Of a stretch of 64,000 nt of DNA, positions 4,122 through 60,000 are shown piece by piece (position 1 is the first letter of the stretch; the number at the start of each line of letters is the position of its first letter). The stretch is taken from the NCBI RefSeq assembly GCF_000373365.1, contig NZ_KB891159.1, positions 62,001 to 126,000 on the forward strand, given 5' to 3'. This DNA is from Parafrankia discariae (GTDB lineage Bacteria > Actinomycetota > Actinomycetes > Frankiales > Frankiaceae). A program made the translations under genes and the position numbers. The notes beneath the pieces are model-generated. The model saw nothing but the letters and a program-made list of their open reading frames with translations, was not told the DNA's origin and searched no databases.

Positions 4122-4208
4122 CTCGCCATTTGGTTTCTTCCTCGCCGTTCAGACAGCATCCCCGGTGAAATCTGCCCTGAAAGGGCAAGGAAGGCGCCAA
4201 ACGGCGAG
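4122..4208. repeat. MITE/REP-like palindromic repeat, copy A
   Basis: An 87-bp imperfect inverted repeat between the convergent ends of the 2101 and 4255 genes. The left arm carries CTCGCC at 4122 and 4141. The right arm carries GGCAAGG near 4184 and GGCGAG at 4203. The arms fold on each other over about 35 bases. A second copy of nearly the same size and layout lies at 51402-51489. The right end, GGCGAGCAGGCCCGC, is directly duplicated at 4223-4237. It sits where a bidirectional terminator would, and may act as one. Confidence 0.7.
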
Positions 4209-4254
4209 CAGGCCCGCCGAAACGGCGAGCAGGCCCGCGGGGCGCGTCGGGCGG

Positions 4255-5403
4255 TCAGCCGGCGACACGGCGGTAGACGGCGGCGGTCAGCTCCGCGGTG
4301 CGCCGCCAGGTGAACGCGCGGGCGTGCTCGCGGCCGGCGGCGGCCTCGGTGGCGGCCCGGGCGGTGTCGGCCGGTTCGGCGAGCGCGGTGCCGAGGGCCC
4401 CGGCGAGGTCGTCGGCGAAGACGTCCCACCGGCCGGGGGTGACCAGGCGGACGCCGGCGGCGGCGCCGACCACCTCGCGGACCGCGGGGATGTCGGCGGC
4501 CACGACCCGGGTACCGGCGGCCAGCGCCTCCAGCGGCGGTAGCCCGAAGCCCTCGTAGCGGGACGGAAAGCACAGCGCGGCCGCGCCGGCGACCACGGAG
4601 CGCAGCTCGGCGTCGTCGAGGTAGCCGAGGGTGACGACGGCGTCCGCGGGCAGGCCCGAGGTGTCGAGCGCCGGGCCCCAGCCGGGCGGGCCGACGAGCG
4701 CCAGCGGCGGGGTGTCGGGCTCGTCGGCGCGCAGCCGGCGCAGCGCCTCCAGCAGCACCGGCAGGTTCTTGCGCGGCTCCGCGGACCCGACGAACAGCAG
4801 GTACCGCTCGGGCAGGCCGCGGGCGGCGAGCCAGCCGCGGGCCGGGGGAGCGGCGTCGAACCAGGCGGGGTCGACGCCGAGCGGGGTCGGGGTCACGATG
4901 TCCGGGTCGAGCCGGTAAGCGGCGATCACCTCGTCGGCGACGGCGCGGCTGGGGGTGAGCACGGCGGCGGCGCGGCGCAGCCCGCGTGGCACCAGCGTCG
5001 CGTAACGCGCGGAGGCGGCCGACACCGTGTCCGGGGTGCGCAGGTAGGACAGGTCGTGCACGGTCAGCACGCCGCGCGCCGACGACAGCGGGCCGAGGAC
5101 GAAGTTCGTCCCGTGCACGATGTCCGCCCGCCCGGTGAGCCACTCGGTGGGCGGGCGCTCCGAGCGGGTCCAGGCGTCCTGCAGCAGCCGCGCCGGGACG
5201 CGCCGCGCCGCCGGGCGGACCCCGGCCGGCAGTGCGGCGCCCAGCCCCGCCCCGCCGCGCCAGGTGAAGGCGGTCGCCGCCACGTCGAGCTCCGCCCCGG
5301 GCAGCTCGACCAGCCCGGTCAGCAGCGCCGCCGTGTACCGGCCGACGCCGGTGCGCGGCCCGAGCAGCGGGGTTCCGTCGAGGACGACGCGCAGCTTCGA
5401 CAC
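4255..5403 (-). CDS. GT4-family glycosyltransferase
   Basis: A 382-residue GT-B glycosyltransferase of normal length. The N-terminal domain begins LRVVLDGTPLLGPRTGVGRY, the usual opening of GT4 enzymes that act on polysaccharide or lipid-linked acceptors. The C-terminal donor domain has EPRKNLPVLLEAL (about residue 235) and CFPSRYEGFGLPPLEALAAG (about residue 300), holding the E-x7-E nucleotide-sugar motif. It is the last gene of a minus-strand operon that starts with an ABC exporter, so it probably extends or starts the exported glycan. Donor and linkage cannot be told. A 91-bp spacer with 18-bp tandem repeats separates it from the gene upstream. Confidence 0.88.
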   Translation of the reverse strand: MSKLRVVLDGTPLLGPRTGVGRYTAALLTGLVELPGAELDVAATAFTWRGGAGLGAALPAGVRPAARRVPARLLQDAWTRSERPPTEWLTGRADIVHGTNFVLGPLSSARGVLTVHDLSYLRTPDTVSAASARYATLVPRGLRRAAAVLTPSRAVADEVIAAYRLDPDIVTPTPLGVDPAWFDAAPPARGWLAARGLPERYLLFVGSAEPRKNLPVLLEALRRLRADEPDTPPLALVGPPGWGPALDTSGLPADAVVTLGYLDDAELRSVVAGAAALCFPSRYEGFGLPPLEALAAGTRVVAADIPAVREVVGAAAGVRLVTPGRWDVFADDLAGALGTALAEPADTARAATEAAAGREHARAFTWRRTAELTAAVYRRVAG

Positions 5404-5416
5404 CGTGGTCAGCGGC

Positions 5417-5497
5417 CCGTGCCCGGAAGCGAATCCGTGCCCGGAAGCGAGTCCATGGTCAGCGGTGAGCCCGTGGTCGGCGGTGAGTCCATGGTCA
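5417..5497. repeat. 18-bp tandem repeat in intergenic spacer
   Basis: About four and a half copies of an 18-bp unit. Two copies begin CCGTGCCCGGAAGCGA and the others run CCATGGTCAGCGGTGAG or CCGTGGTCGGCGGTGAG. They fill the gap between two glycosyltransferase genes and end in the stop codon of the upstream one. Confidence 0.75.
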
Positions 5498-7108
5498 GGA
5501 GTAGAGCCGGCGCTGTTCGGCGATGCCGTGCCAGCGTTCGGCGAACGCGGCGTCGGAGAACTGCTGGGCCCGCTGCACGGAGGCGGCGGCCAGCCGGGAG
5601 CGCAGCCCGTCCTCGGCGGCGAGCCGGCGGGTGAACGAGGCGACCTGCTCCGGGCCGGTCCAGCGGTAGCCGTCCACCCCGTGCCGGACGATCTCGCGCT
5701 GCCCGGCCCGGTCGATGACCACCGGCACGCAGCCGCCGGCCATCGCCTCGACGGTCGTCATCCCGAAGTGCTCCGCCGTCCAGGGGCGTTTGCGGTCGTC
5801 CTCGCCGTAGCCGGTCGCGGACCAGAACACCGAGCTGGTCGACAGCAGCCGCTCCACCTCGGCGCGCGGGGCGTTCGGCAGGACCTCGACGGGTACCCCC
5901 GCCCCGGCGGCGCGGACCTGCTCGACGTAGGGCTTCTGCGAGTCCTCGCAGCCGCCGACGACGTACATCCGCCAGTCGGGCAGCGCCCCGGAGCGGTACA
6001 GCTCGGCGAACCACTGGACCATCTCGAGCTGCCGCTTGGCGTGGCCGAGGCCGGGGGCGAAGAACCGGCCGACGGTGACGACGGCCTTCTCCCGCTCCGG
6101 TGCCGGGGTGAGCCGGTCGACCTGGATCGGCGGGAAGAGCACGTCGGAGTCCCGGCGCCACATCCGCCGGATCCAGCCCCGGGTGTACTCGGAGTTGGCC
6201 ATGACGGTGTCGTAGCCCTCGAGGTAGCCGAGGTCGGCCGGGTCGCGCAGCAGCCAGGGGAAGCGCAGCGCCATCCGCTCCAGCGCGCCCTCGTCGGCGT
6301 CGGTGACCCGCGGCCGGCTGACGGCCACCCCGAGCTCGCGGACGTCCGCCGGCCCGGGGGAGAAGACCTCGCTGACGAAGGTGAGCTCCGTCCCGGCGGT
6401 CGAGGACGGCAGAGTGATCTCGAACGGCGCGAACGCCTGCTCGATCTGGAGCTTGGCGAGGACGGTGCCGTCCGCGTCGACGACCCGCAGCCGCACGCCC
6501 TCACTCGCCCCGGGACGCCCGATGTCCGCGCGCAGGGTGCGCCCGCCGCCCGGGTTGACGGCCAGGATGCCGTCGCCGTTCGTCCAGGTCCACTGCCGCC
6601 GACGGCCCCCTTCGGGCGGGTACCAGCCCTGCCCGAAGCTGACGGCCGGGCTGACCCCGCGCAGCAGCGGCCCGGCGGTGCGCACCGCGGCCTTGCGCCA
6701 GGCGGCCATGTCGTGGTCGAACGGCGTCGGGAAGAAGCACAGGTAGGCCGACCGCGGTGAGCGTGGGGCGAGCCGGCTCATGTACGAGCCGTTCACGAAC
6801 AGGTGGTAGGACTCGGACAGCGCGGCGATGGCGTCCTCGCCGCGGTCCGGCAGCCGCCGGTAGCGGCAGCCGGACAGGTCCAGGCCCAGGTGGCTGCCGA
6901 GCGCGTCGAGGTCGACGTCGGAGTGCCCGATCAGGTCGACGTCGAGCCCGTCCGCGGCCAGCACCTGCGCGATCATGCCGTTGTGGCGCTCGCCGCCGCC
7001 CATCGAGTGCCAGAAGCGGTTGTAGACCGCCGCCCGCAGCCCGGGAGTGGCCCGCGGACCGGCCGCCGCCGGCAGCTCCGCGGCGTCAGCGGAGTCGGGG
7101 GTCGTCAT
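5495..7108 (-). CDS. GT4-like glycosyltransferase with inserted beta-rich domain
   Basis: A 537-residue protein, about 150 longer than a plain GT4. Residues 24-150 form a first Rossmann half (AAVYNRFWHSMGGGERH). Residues 155-268 are an inserted, strand-rich segment with WTWTNGDGILAVNPGGG (173-189) and FSPGPADVRELGVAVS (249-264). The GT-B fold then resumes (YDTVMANSEYTRGWIRRMW), followed by VTVGRFFAPGLGHAKRQ, and the donor site ends in HFGMTTVEAMAGGCVPVV. The same two motifs occur in the insert of the neighbouring GT2 enzyme. The start is ATG at 7108, which overlaps the stop of that gene (ATGA). A longer upstream frame is the antisense or shadow reading of the GT2 gene. Role: probably transfer of a sugar onto the glycan exported by the linked ABC transporter. 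Confidence 0.82.
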   Translation of the reverse strand: MTTPDSADAAELPAAAGPRATPGLRAAVYNRFWHSMGGGERHNGMIAQVLAADGLDVDLIGHSDVDLDALGSHLGLDLSGCRYRRLPDRGEDAIAALSESYHLFVNGSYMSRLAPRSPRSAYLCFFPTPFDHDMAAWRKAAVRTAGPLLRGVSPAVSFGQGWYPPEGGRRRQWTWTNGDGILAVNPGGGRTLRADIGRPGASEGVRLRVVDADGTVLAKLQIEQAFAPFEITLPSSTAGTELTFVSEVFSPGPADVRELGVAVSRPRVTDADEGALERMALRFPWLLRDPADLGYLEGYDTVMANSEYTRGWIRRMWRRDSDVLFPPIQVDRLTPAPEREKAVVTVGRFFAPGLGHAKRQLEMVQWFAELYRSGALPDWRMYVVGGCEDSQKPYVEQVRAAGAGVPVEVLPNAPRAEVERLLSTSSVFWSATGYGEDDRKRPWTAEHFGMTTVEAMAGGCVPVVIDRAGQREIVRHGVDGYRWTGPEQVASFTRRLAAEDGLRSRLAAASVQRAQQFSDAAFAERWHGIAEQRRLYS

Positions 7109-23862: not shown

Positions 23863-24576
23863 ATGAGTTCCCTACGTGACGACGCCCTGGCCTACGCCGG
23901 TCACCAGGTGCATGTCATGCGCCGCCGCGAGGTCGGGACCCTGCTCTCCTGGGCGGGCGACCTGCACGGACGGACCATGCTCGATGTCGCCGGCGGCGAC
24001 GGCTACTGGGCCGGCCAGGCGGTCCGCCGCGGCGCCCGCGCCGTCAGCCTGGACCTCGCCCGCCACAAGCTGGACTTCGGCAGCCGCCTGAAGCACCGCC
24101 CGAGCCTCGTCGAGGGCGACGCGCTGCGCCTGCCGTTCGCGCCCGCCACCTTCGACGTCGTCATGTCGGTCTGCGCGATCGAGCACTTCGACGACGGCCC
24201 GGCCGCCCTCGCCGAGATGGCCCGCGTGCTGCGCCCCGGCGGCGACCTGGTGATGTCCGCGGACGCCCTGACCCGGGCCGAGCGCTGGCCGGACCTGTTC
24301 GCCAGCCACCGCGAGCGCTACCACGTGCAGCACACCTATCCGGGTGAGCAGCTCACGAAGCTGCTCGGCGACGCCGGGCTCGAGGTGGTCCGCCAGACCT
24401 ACATGTTCCGGTCCGAACGGGCGGAGCGCCTCTACCTCAACCTGTCCGCCAAGGGCGGGCGCATCGGCTGGAACGCGGCCGCGGTCTTCTCCCCGCTGGT
24501 GGCCCTCTCCGACCGGCGCGCACCCGACACCACGGGCAGCGTCGTGCTGACCCACGCCCGCAGGCGGCAGCCCTGA
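23863..24576 (+). CDS. Class I SAM-dependent methyltransferase (Methyltransf_11)
   Basis: A 237-residue enzyme. SAM motif I is MLDVAGGDGYWAGQAV near residue 42, VEGDALRLPF follows near 85, and FDVVMSVCAIEHFDDG is motif II near 97-112. The tail has ARVLRPGGDLVMSAD. These are standard for small-molecule or sugar methylases. It lies between glycosyltransferase genes, so a glycan or lipid-linked sugar is the likely target. ATG at 23863 is chosen over the upstream frame because homology begins there and GGGAAAGG precedes it. Confidence 0.82.
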   Translation: MSSLRDDALAYAGHQVHVMRRREVGTLLSWAGDLHGRTMLDVAGGDGYWAGQAVRRGARAVSLDLARHKLDFGSRLKHRPSLVEGDALRLPFAPATFDVVMSVCAIEHFDDGPAALAEMARVLRPGGDLVMSADALTRAERWPDLFASHRERYHVQHTYPGEQLTKLLGDAGLEVVRQTYMFRSERAERLYLNLSAKGGRIGWNAAAVFSPLVALSDRRAPDTTGSVVLTHARRRQP

Positions 24577-24640
24577 ACACCGCGGCCGTGAACGCCGCGG
24601 CCGTGAACGCCGCGGCCCGGAAGCGGACCGGAGCCGTCTC

Positions 24641-24835
24641 GTGAGCGCGCCCGCGCCGCCCGCGCAGAAACTGCTGGCCGCGTTCCTCACCGTCATGCTC
24701 TTCGCGCTGGTCGTCTTCGGCCTCGGGGCCGCGTTCGACTCCTTCGGGCACCGCGGCTGGGGCTACGTCGTCGGCCTCGGCTGCTGCGCCGTCATGATCA
24801 TCGCCGGCCTGGTCGCGGCCCGCCGCGACCACTGA
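24641..24835 (+). CDS. Small two-helix membrane protein, function unknown
   Basis: A 64-residue protein from a GTG start. Two hydrophobic helices (about 10-31 and 40-59) are joined by FDSFGHRGWGY, and it ends in basic ARRDH. I do not recognise the family. It lies between a methyltransferase and a glycosyltransferase on the same strand. The spacer before it holds three copies of GAACGCCGCGGCCGT-like repeats. High third-position GC supports coding. Confidence 0.55.
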   Translation: MSAPAPPAQKLLAAFLTVMLFALVVFGLGAAFDSFGHRGWGYVVGLGCCAVMIIAGLVAARRDH

Positions 24836-24867
24836 CCCCACCCCCTGCCCCCCGCGCCTGCCGATGT

Positions 24868-24907
24868 GGGGCGGGTCGGTGAGTCCATGGACTCACCGAC
24901 CCGCCCC
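24868..24907. repeat. Perfect 40-bp palindrome
   Basis: Bases 24868-24887 are the exact reverse complement of 24888-24907, centred on CCATGG with no spacer. It lies 32 bases after the small membrane protein gene. It could be a terminator, an operator or a recombination site; no T tract follows. Confidence 0.85.
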
Positions 24908-25019
24908 GGTTGCTGAGGCTTGCGCGCCGCCTGTTGGGATTTTGTTGATTTGGGGCGGAGCTGGGCTGGGCGGGTGGGGTGGGGTCGGTGGGGGGCGCGG
25001 GGCGGGGGAGACTGGCGCC

Positions 25020-26207
25020 ATGCGGGTCGGTTTCCTGGTCGAGCAGATACTGGCGCCGGTCCCCGGGGGGACCGGAAGGTACTCCGCGGAGCTCGCCGCC
25101 GCCCTGGCCCGGACCGCGGATCCCGGGGACGGTGTCGTCGGGTGGTGCGCCTTGCGGCGGGACACCTCCGCGGCGGCTCTGCCGGGTGTCCTCGGGCCGC
25201 TGCGGCTGGGCCTGCCGCGCCGGGCGCTGGCCGCGGCCTGGGCGCGCGGCACGGGCCCGACCCCGACCGGCGCGGACATCATCCACGCGCCGACCCTGCT
25301 CGTGCCCCCACCCGGCCGGCGGGGCCGGGCCGCCGGTGCGACCCGGGCCGGGCAGCGGCTGGTGGTCACCGTGCACGACGCCGTCCCGTGGACGCACCCC
25401 GAGACCCTGACGCCGCACGGCGTCCGCTGGCACCGGGAGATGGGGGAGCGGGTCGCCCGGCACGCCGACGCGGTGATCGTGCCGACCCGGGCCGTCGCGG
25501 CCGACATCCGGGAGCAACTGCCGATCGACGCGCGGCGGCTGCACGTGATCGGTGAGGGGGTCGCCGAGGCGGTGCTGCGGGTGCCGCCGGACGCGGATCA
25601 CCGGGCCGCCCGGCTGGGCCTGCCCGAACGGGGGTACCTGCTCACCCTGGCCACGATGGAGCCGCGCAAGGGCCTGGACACCCTGCTCGCCGCCCTGCGT
25701 CACCCGGACGCGCCCGACCTTCCGCTGGTGCACGTCGGAGCGGCCGGCTGGGGTGATCTCGGTCCCGCCGCGACCGGGCCCGGGGGCTTCGCCGAGCTTG
25801 CCGCGTCCGGGCGGTTCCTTGGTCTCGGCCGGATCAGTGACGAAGATCTCGCCGTGGTGCTCTCCCGGGCGACCGTGCTGGTCGCGCCGAGTCGCTCCGA
25901 GGGCTTCGGCCTGCCGGTCATCGAGGCGATGGCGCACGGGGTGCCGGTGGTCGTCTCCGACACGCCGGCTCTCGTCGAGGTCGCCGGCGACGCGGCACTG
26001 GTGGCCCGGATCGGTGATCCGGCCGGCTTCGCCGAGGCGCTCGCGCGTATCGTCCAGAATCCCCGGCTACACAGTCGTTTGTCGCGTTCCGGACCGGTCC
26101 GTGCGGCGGGATATACCTGGAATGGGGCGGCGCGATCGTGCTGGGAGCTCTACCGTCGAATCAGCGGCTCCCCTGCCGTGTCCGTCGCCGACGACGGGCG
26201 GGCGTAG
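25020..26207 (+). CDS. GT4-family glycosyltransferase
   Basis: A 395-residue GT-B enzyme. It begins MRVGFLVEQILAPVPGGTGR, where the glycine-rich loop follows strand 1. VVTVHDAVPWTHPE is near 117, ATMEPRKGLDTLLAAL near 210 and VAPSRSEGFGLPVIEAMAHG near 285, with the donor-binding E-x7-E. The ATG at 25020 follows GCGGGGGAG. The frame continues upstream through the palindrome but has no ribosome site. It leads a run of four sugar-handling genes on the same strand. Confidence 0.87.
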   Translation: MRVGFLVEQILAPVPGGTGRYSAELAAALARTADPGDGVVGWCALRRDTSAAALPGVLGPLRLGLPRRALAAAWARGTGPTPTGADIIHAPTLLVPPPGRRGRAAGATRAGQRLVVTVHDAVPWTHPETLTPHGVRWHREMGERVARHADAVIVPTRAVAADIREQLPIDARRLHVIGEGVAEAVLRVPPDADHRAARLGLPERGYLLTLATMEPRKGLDTLLAALRHPDAPDLPLVHVGAAGWGDLGPAATGPGGFAELAASGRFLGLGRISDEDLAVVLSRATVLVAPSRSEGFGLPVIEAMAHGVPVVVSDTPALVEVAGDAALVARIGDPAGFAEALARIVQNPRLHSRLSRSGPVRAAGYTWNGAARSCWELYRRISGSPAVSVADDGRA

Positions 26208-35372: not shown

Positions 35373-36611
35373 TTGCCCGTGATCTCTGCTGCGCCCGTTC
35401 CCGCGGGCGCAGGTCACCGGCGTGGTTTCCGCCGGCCGCTTTTCCCGACCCGTCGCGTCGACCGCCCGCGCCCGCGTTCCGTCCTCCCGCCGTCTCCCGT
35501 CCCACACCCGTCCCCTGATGCGTGCCGCCTGCCGGGTTCCCCTCCCGGCGGGCGGTTACGGCGCCGCCGCCTGCCCGTTTTCAGCGGCGCCGTAACCGGC
35601 CGGGGCCATCGAGCCCGCCGTCCCGGCCGCGGTCGACAGGACCGTCCCCGACCTGCCGGGCGCGGTGCCGACCACGCCGGGTCTGGGCGATGTGCGTCTC
35701 ACCGACCGCGGGCCTCGCTGGCCCCGTCCGCGCCGCCTACGCCGCCCGAGCCCGCCAGCGGTCCACCCGCCGCGGCGCGGCCCGGCGGGGCGCTCCGCGC
35801 GGAGTTCGGGGAGTCCCGGATCGTCAAACCCGATCCGGGCCCCGGGCGCCGTGGCGGCAAACCCCAGGCGGGACGCACGGAGATCGTGCAGGAACGCACG
35901 GAGAGCACCCGTGAGTTCCACAACCCCGACGGAACGTTCACCACCGAGTCGACGATGGGCCCCGTCCGGTTCCAGGACGAGAAGGACGCCTGGGTCGACA
36001 TCGACACGTCCCTGGAGCAGGCGGAACCGGGCCGGCTTCGCGCGGCCGAGACCGAACACCCGGTCGAAGTCGCGCAGACGGCGACGGACCCTGAACTGGG
36101 GCGCGTCGAGCTCGGCGACGGCATGTCGGTGTCGTTCTCACTGGCCGACTCCGCGTCCGCCACGGCCCGGGTCGACGGCTCGAAGGCGACGTTCACCGGC
36201 GTGCGCGAGTCGGCCGACCTGGAGCTCGGCCCCTACCCGGATGGCCTGAAGGAGATCATCGTCCTCCGCTCGCCGGAGGCACCGACCACGTGGGAGCTCC
36301 CGCTAGCGCTGGAGGGCCTGACCGCCAGGGTCGACGACCGTCAGGTCGTCCTGGCGGACACGGCCGGTGAGCCGCGCGCCGTGATCCCACCGGGGTGGAT
36401 GGAGGACTCCCGCACCGAGGGCGGCACGCCCGCCACCTCCAGCGGCGTGACCTACGCCCTGACCGAAAGCGAGGACGGCGCCCAGATCCTTCGGGTGGAC
36501 CTCGACCGGGAATGGCTGTCGGACCCCGCCCGCGTCTTCCCCGTCAAGGTGGACCCCACCTTCAACATCGTGGGCCAGAATGTACGGGCCCAGACCGACG
36601 ACACCTACTAA
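35373..36611 (+). pseudogene. 5' fragment of a DNRLRE/RHS-type secreted surface protein, cut by IS630
   Basis: Only the part from about residue 145 looks protein-like: REFHNPDGTFTTESTMGPVR, KDAWVDIDTSLEQ, IVLRSPEAPTTWELPL and FPVKVDPTFNI. This matches the N-terminal region that precedes DNRLRE or RHS repeats in large secreted actinobacterial proteins. The first 140 residues are Arg/Pro-rich and look like a shifted frame. A better mature N-terminus (AVPAAVDRTVPDLPGAVP) is readable in another frame near 35610-35690, which suggests a frameshift. The stop TAA at 36609 is supplied by the inserted IS. No C-terminal half is found on the far side of the IS. Confidence 0.6.
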
Positions 36612-43980: not shown

Positions 43981-44111
43981 AAGTTGTCAGCTGGGTCGGG
44001 TCGGCGGCGTGCCGAAAAGCCCGGCCGCTGGAGCACCGTGACGGAAGGCGATGGCGTGCCGCGCGCGCCCGATCCGTCCTGCCACGTCAGGGTTCCGGGG
44101 GCCCGGACGAC

Positions 44112-44169
44112 GGCCAGCCGGCCGCGGGCGACGTCGTTACCGACAGTCGTCGCCCGCGGCCGGCTGGCC
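44112..44169. terminator. Exact 22-bp-arm hairpin after acyltransferase gene
   Basis: 44112-44133 and 44148-44169 are exact reverse complements around a 14-base loop. It lies 46 bases beyond the stop of the minus-strand acyltransferase gene, so it probably terminates that transcript and insulates the septum-like operon. Confidence 0.75.
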
Positions 44170-44215
44170 CAGGTCCACCTGGTGCGCGGCCGACCCGTCC
44201 GCGGCCGGCGGTGCC

Positions 44216-57036: not shown

Positions 57037-60000
57037 ATGACGAGACCAACGCGGGACGCCGATCACCACCGGTGGGCGGTTCGTCCCCGAGGAGCCGTTC
57101 GTCCCGGTCAGCGGGTCGTCGCGGTCGTCGTGACGCGGTGGGATCAGCCCGCGGCGCCCGGCGGCCACGACCCGGGCCCGGGTCGTGGCCCGGGCCGCGA
57201 CGGTCCCGGCAGTCCTGACGCCGCGGCCCTGCCCGGTCCGGCGGGCCCAGCGAGCCGGGCGGGCCTGGTGGCCGCGCTGACCGCGTCGACCCGCCCGCCC
57301 GAGCGGATCGTGGTCGTCCGGCTCGGCGGCTCGGCGATCCCCGAGCAACGGGCCGACACAGCCCCTGGGCAGCGGGCCGGCGCCATCCCCGCGCCGCCGG
57401 TCGACACGCCGCGGGCCGCGATCCTGAACCTGCCTCCGGGGACGTCCTTCGCGGTCGCGGTCGCGGCCGGCATCCGGCACGGCGGGCTGGGTGGCGCTCC
57501 CGACACGTTCTACTGGCTGATCCACGATGGTGTCCGGCCGCTGCCCGACGCCCTGGAGCGGCTGCTCACCTACGCCCGGGTCGACCCGGGCGCCGCGGTC
57601 CTCGGTCCCAAGGTGCTTGACGCCGCCCGACCGGAGTCCCTGGTCGAGGCCGGCGTGACGGTCGACCGGGCCGGCCGGCGGATCACCGGTGTCGTCCCGG
57701 GCGCGCCCGACGACGGACAGCACGACGCCGTGCGCGACGTGCTGGCCGTCTCCTGCGCGGGGATGCTCGTGCGGGCCTCGGCCTGGGAGCGGCTCGGCGG
57801 CCTGGCCGCGGACATGACCGCCGGCCTCGATCTGGATCTCGGTGCCCGCGCGGCGCGGGCGGGCCTGCGGGTCGTCGTCGTGCCTCCGGCGGTGGTGCTG
57901 CTCACGCCCCCCGCACGCACCGACACCCCCCTCGTCAACACCCGGATCGTCACCAGACGCCTGGTAGACGGACCCGTGGTCGACGGGCCCCCGGCTGGTG
58001 GGCCTCTGACTGGTGGGCCTCTCGCCGAAGCGCCCGCTGTCGCCCGCGCTGGCGACCGTGCCGGGAGGGTCGCGGGGGCCCGGGTGCGGCTCGCGCTGAC
58101 GGCGGCCCCCCTCCTCGGGCCGGCGGTGCTCGCGTTCGTGGCCGCGGGCGTGACGCGGGTCGGAGCCCGCCTGCTCCGCCCGCCCCGGGCTGACGGGAGG
58201 CCGACGGACCCGCGTTCCCGCGGCCGGTGGCGCCATGCCCTGACCGAACTGTGGATCCTCGGCGCGGTCCTCGCCGGCCCGCGGGCCCTGCTCCGGATGC
58301 GGGTCCGGTTCGGCGGTGCCACGGCGGTGCCACGGCGCGCCGTGCGCGAGCTGCTGCCGGCTCGCCCGGTGGTCCGCGCGGTCGTCGACCGGGCGCCGGG
58401 CGTCCCCCACGCGGTCGCTCCATCGCGGTCGCTCGCGGCGGTGCTGGCCCTGCTGCTCGGGGTGGGTGGCCTGGCCGTCCGCCGGCTGCCGCCGGACGCC
58501 GTCGGCGGCGGCGTGCCGCTGCCCGGGCGCGCCGGCGAACTGTGGTCCGCGGTGTGGTCCGGTTGGCAGGGCTCCGCGGGCGGCGCGCTCGGCTGGCCGG
58601 GCTCGGCGCCACCCTGGACGGCCCTGCTCGCCGCGCTGTCGTCCGCCACCGCCCCGGTCGGTCTCGACGTGGCCGCGACCTGCTCGATGCTGCTCGCCCT
58701 CGCCCCGGCGGCGGCGGCCTACCTGGCGTACCGGGCCGCGGGACGGCTCGTCGTCGCGGGCCGCCTGCGGCTCGGCCTGGCGGCCCTGTACGGGGTGTCC
58801 CCGCCGGTCACGGGATCGGTGCTGACCGGCCGGATCGAGACCGCCGCCGCACTGGCGGTTCTGCCCGCCGTTCTCGCGGCGGGGGACGAGTTCCTCCGCG
58901 GCCGAACGGACCGGGCCGTGGCGGCCGGCGGTGCCGTGGCGGCCGGCGGTGTCGTGGCGGCCGGCGGTGTCATGGCTACCGGTGGTGCCGTGGCGACCGG
59001 CCGGGCGGGCTGGCGGCTCGCCGTCTCGCTGGCCGTCGTCCTCGCGTGCGCGCCGGTGCTGGCCCCGGTCGCGCTGGTCGGCCTGCCCGTGGCGGCCTGG
59101 GCCGTCCGCGGGTCACGGCCGTCGGACACGCGGTCGCTGGCGGTGCCGGTGACCGGTGTGCTGATCGCGGGAGCGGTCCCCCTGCTGCCCGGCTTCGTCA
59201 CGGGGGGCGCCGGGTGGTGGCTCGCCGCTGTGCCACCCCTGCCCGGCGCGGAACTGACCGGCCTGGTGGCCGGCGCTCCCGGCGGCGCGGGGAGGGCCAC
59301 CGCGCTCTGCCTCTTCGCGGCGCTGTGTCTGTTGCTCACCGGCGGTTCCCGGCTGCTCGGCCGCCGGGCCTCGCCCGGCATCGGCGGGGTGGCCGCCGGC
59401 TGGGCACTCGTCACGGCGGCTGTGATCATGATCGCGCTGGCGGCGCCGATCGCCAACGCCTGGTCGGACGGCGCGGTCCCGACCGCGGCCGGCCTCGTCG
59501 GCGGGTGGGTCGGCGCGCAGTACGGACTCGCCTGCGCCGGGCTCCTGGTGGCCGCCGGCGCGGCGCTCGCCGGCGGTGCGGGCGGCCCGCGGGTGGGCTC
59601 GCGGCGGCGCGCGCGGGCGGCGCGTGGTGCGCGCCGGGTCGGGGTGGTCCTGCTCGGCGGGTGTGTGCTGGCGTTCGCCGCCGGCCTGGCCACCGCGACG
59701 CCGATTCCGGGCCCCGCCCAGGACGGCCCGGCCCGCGCGGTCGTCGCGCTGAGCCGGACGGGCGGTCCGGGCGCGCGCGTCCTGGTGCTGCGCCGGTCCG
59801 GTCCGTCGGCGCCGGTCGCGTACAGCCTGGCCGCCCAGGGCGGCCCCAGGTTCCCGGCCGCGGTGGCGCACCGGCCCGCGCCCGCCGACCGGGCGCTGGC
59901 GGTGCTCGTGTCGGACATCTCCGCCGGCCTCCCGGACGCCGCCGCCGCGCTGCCGGCCTTCGGGGTGACCGCGGTCGTCGTCCCGGCGGGTTCGGCCGAC

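Follow-up and report, generated by a model that had tools for sequence, protein, structure and literature searches.

The perfect 40-bp palindrome described here, found in a 64,000-nt stretch of Parafrankia discariae DNA (the window), is in our reading, in which we place moderate confidence, a copy of a lineage-specific, mobile, REP/RPE-like repeat of ~52 bp whose copies behind genes are kept as transcript-end hairpins working in both directions. The copies are dispersed through the genomes of two related soil actinobacteria, the host and P. soli, and absent from the four other congeners searched; they are present or absent at orthologous sites, occupy two intragenic sites in their single open frame, are placed at gene 3' ends and maintain the pairing of their arms. 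Placement and pairing together make it somewhat probable that copies behind genes are kept as strand-symmetric transcript-end hairpins.

The initial annotation of this DNA had reported an exact spacerless palindrome in a gap between a small membrane protein gene and a glycosyltransferase gene, and both statements are correct: the two 20-nt arms (24868-24887 and 24888-24907) show 100% complementarity with 0 nt separating them, and the gap runs from a stop codon at 24835 to a start at 25020 (Table 1). The palindrome starts 32 bp past the stop codon of the upstream gene, whose hydrophobic product is probably a membrane protein, and lies 112 bp ahead of the glycosyltransferase gene, with imperfect pairing continuing beyond the 40-bp core out to 24862-24913. 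Under a mononucleotide model, a 40-bp palindrome is expected by chance ~3e-6 times per 64 kb and 4e-4 times per 7.9 Mb. Zero-spacer palindromes with arms >=18 number nine in the 864 kb sampled from the host and P. soli, and Markov-3 simulations of the same lengths gave longest zero-spacer arms of 11 and 10. Among the longest 25 of the 44 inverted-repeat pairs of the window, just one other pair has perfect arms (57163-57190, 28 bp). The window also holds two imperfect intergenic inverted repeats, one at 44105-44176 (29-nt arms, 90% complementary, 14 nt between) and one at 35549-35602 (19-nt arms, 95% complementary, 16 nt between).

Table 1. Position of the palindrome and its neighboring genes in the window.
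Feature	Position	Strand	Basis
Perfect 40-bp spacerless palindrome, GGGGCGGGTCGGTGAGTCCA joined to TGGACTCACCGACCCGCCCC	24868..24907		Inverted-repeat search and sequence
Full family element, 52 nt	24862..24913		Match to covariance model R1
Gene for 64-aa hydrophobic protein, upstream neighbor	24641..24835	+	Codon-model gene finder; no Pfam match
Glycosyltransferase gene, GT4-type, downstream neighbor	25020..26207	+	Pfam Glycos_transf_1, Glyco_transf_4
SAM-dependent methyltransferase gene, two genes upstream of the palindrome	23863..24576	+	Gene finder and Pfam

As RNA, the palindrome with short flanks folds at -44.4 kcal/mol on the + strand (z -6.6) and at -43.4 kcal/mol on the - strand (z -8.2), each time with a CAUG loop. 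A terminator scan reported no U-tract at this copy, and no T-run follows the stem. Rfam gave 0 matches at the gathering threshold in 12 family loci, with sub-threshold matches only in the window at 24500-25200. Nothing was found in support of the instability that had been ascribed to the palindrome on account of its length; such instability is chiefly a matter of much longer palindromes. The lack of a spacer is largely incidental, mostly reflecting an inherited CATG tetraloop.

A genome search for further copies, which the initial annotation had proposed, revealed a dispersed family rather than an isolated feature. With up to 3 mismatches allowed, the 20-mer core has 11 palindromic places in the host genome (G000) and its reversed control 0; across 35 genomes of the taxonomic family, core matches number 11 in G000, 15 in Parafrankia soli NRRL B-16219 (G003) and 0 or 1 in every other genome. 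A covariance model (R1; 52 positions, 24 pairs) was built from 25 copies, including the window copy, which scores 71.7 bits on the + strand and 64.3 bits on the - strand. At E<=0.01, with 150 candidates scored per genome, R1 gave at least 79 strand-matches in G000 and at least 113 in G003, and 0 in the other congeners G001, G002, G004 and G005; among the matches listed are at least 35 family places in G000 and at least 50 in G003. A search of the GTDB genome collection, from which the window's own genome may have been excluded, found the exact 19-mer of the arm in 19 stretches; 13 of these are P. soli and the remaining 6 are single stretches from other taxa. The early concern that the palindrome might not be conserved in close strains is thus answered in two parts, since it is present in P. 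soli and absent from the four other congeners.

The family consensus is approximately CGAWGTGTGGCGGGTSRGTGAGTCCA joined to TGGACTCACYSACCCGCCACACWTCG. Its arms vary in step, with changes on both sides in 13 of the 24 pairs of an alignment that was selected for similarity and for which the controls are soft. Perfect palindromes among the copies span 36-54 bp, and the loop is 4 nt long in 52 of 75 folded copies, 20 of these 52 loops being not self-complementary. An asymmetric looped subfamily with a GTCCTGGCTG-type center comprises 13 of the 75 copies by manual grouping (a 10-nt loop was obtained by folding in 9/75), and in several of them pairing reaches further out, giving an imperfect palindrome ~110 nt long whose outer arms, paired by eye, include CCGTTATGCACG and CGTGCATAGCGG. 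Shortening and symmetrization of the looped form could have produced the spacerless one.

Spread of the element is supported by its presence or absence at orthologous sites and by copies within genes. Six alignable sites carry a copy in just one of G000 and G003 (L114, L127, L121, L158, L173 and L174). Neither a target-site duplication nor a mobilizing gene was found; at the copy-less sites the flanks are too diverged for a duplication or clean insertion boundaries to be read. In P. soli, a perfect 50-bp copy (L142; G003:C202:31502-31553) lies in frame in an Ala/Pro-rich linker of a long synthase-like ORF, with tandem phosphopantetheine (ACP) domains alongside (Pfam) and an upstream part that looks KS/AT-like in our own reading of the sequence. 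This copy translates to DVWRVSESMDSLTRHTSS, a peptide absent from the homologous linkers in G000, G001, G002 and G004. The second in-gene site is in a hydrophobic protein without a Pfam match that is unrelated to the synthase and has DVWRFSVSQDALNRHTS / DVWRFNASQDSPNRRTS at a single position shared by G000 and G003; a G005 homologue (42-47% identical) is without the element peptide. Both genes use the one frame of three in which the element consensus is stop-free (DVWR...RHTS), a frame that is the same on both strands. We rejected an open frame alone as proof of a coding insertion, as many intergenic copies in this GC-rich DNA sit in stop-free frames of >=200 codons. The in-gene argument therefore rests on the homologues and on the coding signal, which within the synthase linker itself is weak. 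REP elements are associated with their own Y1 transposases (RAYTs), which are flanked by REP copies. A Y1 transposase or REPtron was rejected as the mobilizer here: the six congeneric genomes hold 18 Y1_Tnp loci (3 in G000, 9 in G003), and none of the 18, each scanned as a locus of 2.0-3.4 kb, carries a copy, the best candidate reaching 28/52 identities.

The placement of the copies points to the ends of genes. We assessed 75 copies with flanks, namely all 35 listed places in G000 and 40 of the 50 listed in G003, using gene calls from a home-made codon-model finder that is blind to RNA genes. Convergent gaps account for 30 copies, tandem gaps for 34 and divergent gaps for 4, with 3 more inside ORFs (2 sites) and 4 at contig edges; subtracting 18 orthologous G003 copies leaves a nonredundant set of 22 convergent, 26 tandem, 4 divergent, 3 edge and 2 inside. 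Relative to 449 intergenic gaps of >=60 bp in G000 and G003 (294 tandem, 99 divergent and 56 convergent), the nonredundant set shows a convergent excess (Fisher p 7e-7) and a divergent deficit (p 0.017). The excess holds in each genome (p 1e-5 in G000, 1e-4 in G003), and the deficit has p 0.008 in G000 and a nonsignificant p 0.07 in G003. Of the 34 copies in tandem gaps, 31 lie closer to the upstream stop codon, with medians of 57 bp to the stop vs 253 bp to the next start (24 vs 2 copies in the nonredundant set), and 18 of the 34, like the window copy, fall <=60 bp past that stop. A perfect copy at L110 is far from genes, the nearest called ones being 1157 and 2076 bp away. Such placement may only mark where insertions are tolerated, because REP elements share it and yet are reportedly not specific terminators (PMC1525189).

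Hairpins outside the family were classified in the same way across the 864 kb, with the family copies L059, L067 and L047 (1-2 nt spacers) excluded. Other perfect hairpins (arms >=13, loops 1-12 nt) are convergent in 12 cases, on the tandem 3' side in 13, on the tandem 5' side in 2, divergent in 4 and inside genes in 13. The 3'-end preference is not shown by other spacerless palindromes with arms >=13, unlike these looped hairpins: 2 are convergent, 4 on the tandem 3' side, 5 on the 5' side, 1 divergent, 4 inside and 2 at edges. One of the five on the tandem 5' side lies behind a tRNA-Leu gene that the finder does not see. At this locus of P. soli (L081; G003:C1:120001-140000), an unrelated 58-bp perfect spacerless palindrome with a CCATGG center (5764-5821) begins 7 bp past the end of the tRNA-Leu(taa) gene (5681-5757). 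Perfect arms >=10 near tRNA genes occur downstream in only 4/30 cases and upstream in 0/30, and two G000 tRNA loci (L313 and L314) have perfect 19-bp and 21-bp hairpins ~5 nt past the tRNA genes with no separate T-run. A 48-bp perfect spacerless palindrome of another sequence (L058; G000:C2:120001-140000, 4968-5015) apparently lies within a called gene (4131-5672), and a divergent gap (L065; G003:C213:60001-80000, 2828-2917) holds three identical hairpins, CGGGTACCCG-GGCACG-CGGGTACCCG, at 32-bp spacing, which resemble a tandem operator-like array.

The alternative that survives best is a purely selfish palindromic repeat that inserts anywhere and is purged from promoters and most genes, without any host function; we consider this unlikely, if still a serious contender. 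The in-frame copies in two unrelated genes fit such an element well, as do the copies that are perfect despite lying in divergent gaps or far from genes, the lack of 3'-end enrichment among spacerless palindromes outside the family, and the absence of a sense-strand bias described below. The symmetry of the arms would then be a by-product of how the element copies itself, or of ongoing conversion, whether between arms (template switching) or from copy to copy. Sites occupied in both genomes bear on this directly. There are 19 such pairs, of which 14 ungapped ones were counted (L115, L117, L122, L132 and L135 were left out because of indels). Among their 280 stem pairs, 220 are unchanged Watson-Crick pairs and 20 are matched double substitutions; one-sided changes, in either direction, link a Watson-Crick pair with G-T 14 times, with A-C 8 times and with other mismatches only 4 times, and 14 pairs are of other kinds. 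At the window locus, two matched changes and two one-sided ones separate P. soli from the host. Orthologous copies thus retain their pairing through matched changes, which supports the earlier suggestion that selection acts on the palindrome. The matched substitutions comprise 19 transitions and 1 transversion, whereas the flanks, coding and not, which diverge at 9.0% of 5786 sites, have a Ts:Tv of 292:227 (Fisher p 3e-4). Copying from arm to arm predicts a neutral spectrum and passage through G.U or A.C predicts transitions, so that selection for pairing via wobble-type intermediates fits better than arm-to-arm copying. Also counting against a purely selfish element, the sole in-gene ortholog pair (L120/L170, n=1) has no matched Watson-Crick change. 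In its favor, the hairpin tip of the L140/L156 pair has been swapped as a block between flanks that are both ~92% identical, which suggests that recombination between copies may be a further process.

At the site orthologous to the window copy, the other congeners differ from one another. No comparable hairpin was seen in G001 or G005, and G002 has a clear but different hairpin, GGATTTTGGTCGTTTCAACGACCAAAATCC. G004 has two 76-nt direct repeats with imperfect hairpins that, by eye, resemble that of G002 and are less regular; an inverted-repeat search of this G004 site reported no hairpin. The G002 hairpin is itself one of many, its dispersed family being unrelated to the CCATGG-centered one: a search for GATTTTGGTCGT-N(0-10)-ACGACCAAAATC in 35 genomes gave 28 occurrences in G002, 8 in G004 and 0 in the other 33. 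Hairpin clustering recovered this second family from 400 kb of G002; applied to G001 (400 kb) and G005 (320 kb), it found no repeat family, only GC-rich look-alikes. Amplified hairpin families therefore look like lineage traits. The loop of the GATTTTGGTCGT-N4-ACGACCAAAATC family is exactly four bases in 36/36 copies and has 16 different sequences, of which one is self-complementary; this constant length with free sequence suggests that it is the hairpin that matters and not a DNA dyad, although the copies could also have kept the length through shared ancestry. A bolder and rather doubtful extension is that sister lineages of one genus have separately amplified mobile hairpin families unrelated to each other, which would act as interchangeable plug-in transcript-end modules, with the same gene 3' ends occupied, mutual replacement, selection on pairing, and a mover other than RAYT/Y1 transposases.

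It is improbable, in our estimation, that the copies are nothing other than ordinary long, I-shaped, U-less intrinsic terminators that are alike through recombinational duplication, not mobility. This would account for the convergent and tandem-3' placement and for the different hairpin at the window locus in G002. By eye, other hairpins also stand where a partner genome lacks a copy (L078 opposite L114, L121 opposite L158), and some orthologous G005 gaps have strong other folds. Nevertheless, among seven orthologous G001/G005 gaps, the best fold is >=2 sd past shuffles in just 3 (z -2.2, -3.1 and -2.5), and copies inside coding genes and in divergent gaps are not what a terminator alone would predict. 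The U-tract of canonical intrinsic terminators is also absent: only 2/34 tandem copies have >=4 T among the first 8 bases past the stem, and the T fraction there shows no excess over the opposite side (0.20 vs 0.19). Likewise, pairing defects have no sense bias, with 27 G.U vs 20 A.C counted over those tandem copies (30 of 34) that agree with the consensus at >=34 positions, and fold stability is better in sense for 18 of the 34 tandem copies, in antisense for 15 and tied for 1 (Wilcoxon p 0.88). A one-direction RNA role was rejected on this lack of sense-strand bias. Most inverted repeats that follow a stop codon in Escherichia coli form part of an intrinsic terminator (PMC6060812), and U-less terminators in mycobacteria are disputed (PMC12288462). 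With the I-shaped mycobacterial terminators as presented there, the Parafrankia copies share a GC-rich hairpin without poly-U shortly past stop codons; unlike them, the Parafrankia hairpin is a member of an interspersed repeat that also lies within genes, and its termination role is putative.

It is very improbable that the palindrome serves at the DNA level as a dyad-dependent site for a dimeric protein, be it a regulator, a nucleoid protein or a segregation protein. The dyad symmetry and strand-neutral defects would suit such a protein, but the usual dimer footprint is far shorter than 52 bp, promoter association is lacking, many stem positions are free to vary while paired, and the palindrome center is not always self-complementary. 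A requirement for a DNA dyad was not favored, four-base loops being non-self-complementary in 20/52 copies of the CCATGG-centered family and 35/36 of the second. As for the assembly artefact that the initial annotation had allowed for, some copies do sit at or near contig ends, but it is practically negligible as an explanation, given dozens of copies with different flanks and an orthologous palindrome in the separately assembled P. soli (contig C274) whose arms have diverged by two differences and still match. The copies at or near contig ends (C56 and C232 of G003, both at base 15, and C122:505 and C140:345 of G000) suggest that palindromes or repeats may break assemblies.

Returning to the retained mobile hairpin that we favor, its closest counterparts are known families of bacterial repeats. 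REP sequences are described (PMC1525189) as palindromic, 21-65 nt long, present in many copies, extragenic and preferring gaps between convergent genes; the Parafrankia family is likewise palindromic and of this length, has many copies, is intergenic in 68/75 cases and prefers convergent gaps, and it differs from REP in that many copies are spacerless and perfect, with arms changing together, and in its two intragenic sites. RPEs (PMC10969869) are palindromic mobile repeats of ~150 bp that lie in frame within unrelated protein genes and encode a conserved peptide, nearly half of them being inside ORFs in the first report. The Parafrankia element is similarly in frame in two unrelated genes with a conserved peptide (DVWRVSESMDSLTRHTS and DVWRFSVSQDALNRHTS), these being just 2 sites among 75 copies; unlike RPE as given there, it is ~52 bp long (~110 nt in the looped subfamily), only 3/75 copies are intragenic, and organism and sequence are unrelated. 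The same paper describes MITEs such as RUP and SPRITE, the latter terminator-like, as short interspersed hairpin-forming elements. The Parafrankia element is short, interspersed and hairpin-forming too; the diverged flanks of its copy-less sites do not let a target-site duplication be read. Our search of the open-licence literature found no publication on this Parafrankia repeat: the accessible text of two Frankia papers (PMC3188489 and PMC5768760) mentions repeats only as CRISPR, and a third used EMBOSS to count perfect palindromic repeats in four strains of Frankia, among them EAN1pec (PMC4447401). We regard the family as a new one of the REP/RPE-like type, ordinary in kind. Its uncommon features are the spacerless perfect copies, the matched evolution of the arms, the in-frame copies and the unrelated counterpart family at the same locus in a sister lineage.

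According to the reading we prefer, a short palindromic element would spread through the genome, and copies landing behind genes would be kept. Folded in the transcript, such a copy would form a hairpin of up to ~25 bp that could end or protect mRNA 3' ends from either direction and would need no U-tract. In the window, the hairpin would set the gene for the 64-aa protein apart from the one for the glycosyltransferase. If the extension to sister lineages is true, the CCATGG-centered family of the host and P. soli and the GATTTTGGTCGT-N4-ACGACCAAAATC family of G002 and G004 would be interchangeable modules. The means by which short palindromic repeats spread in bacteria, and the reason for their settling behind genes, are matters of continuing debate. 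Two related genomes here supply 19 orthologous copy pairs, copy-less sites and in-frame gene copies, and a sister lineage has an unrelated family with one copy at the locus of the window palindrome. Simple experiments in a high-GC actinobacterium could therefore tell apart selection on the hairpin, selfish spread and the replacement of transcript ends.
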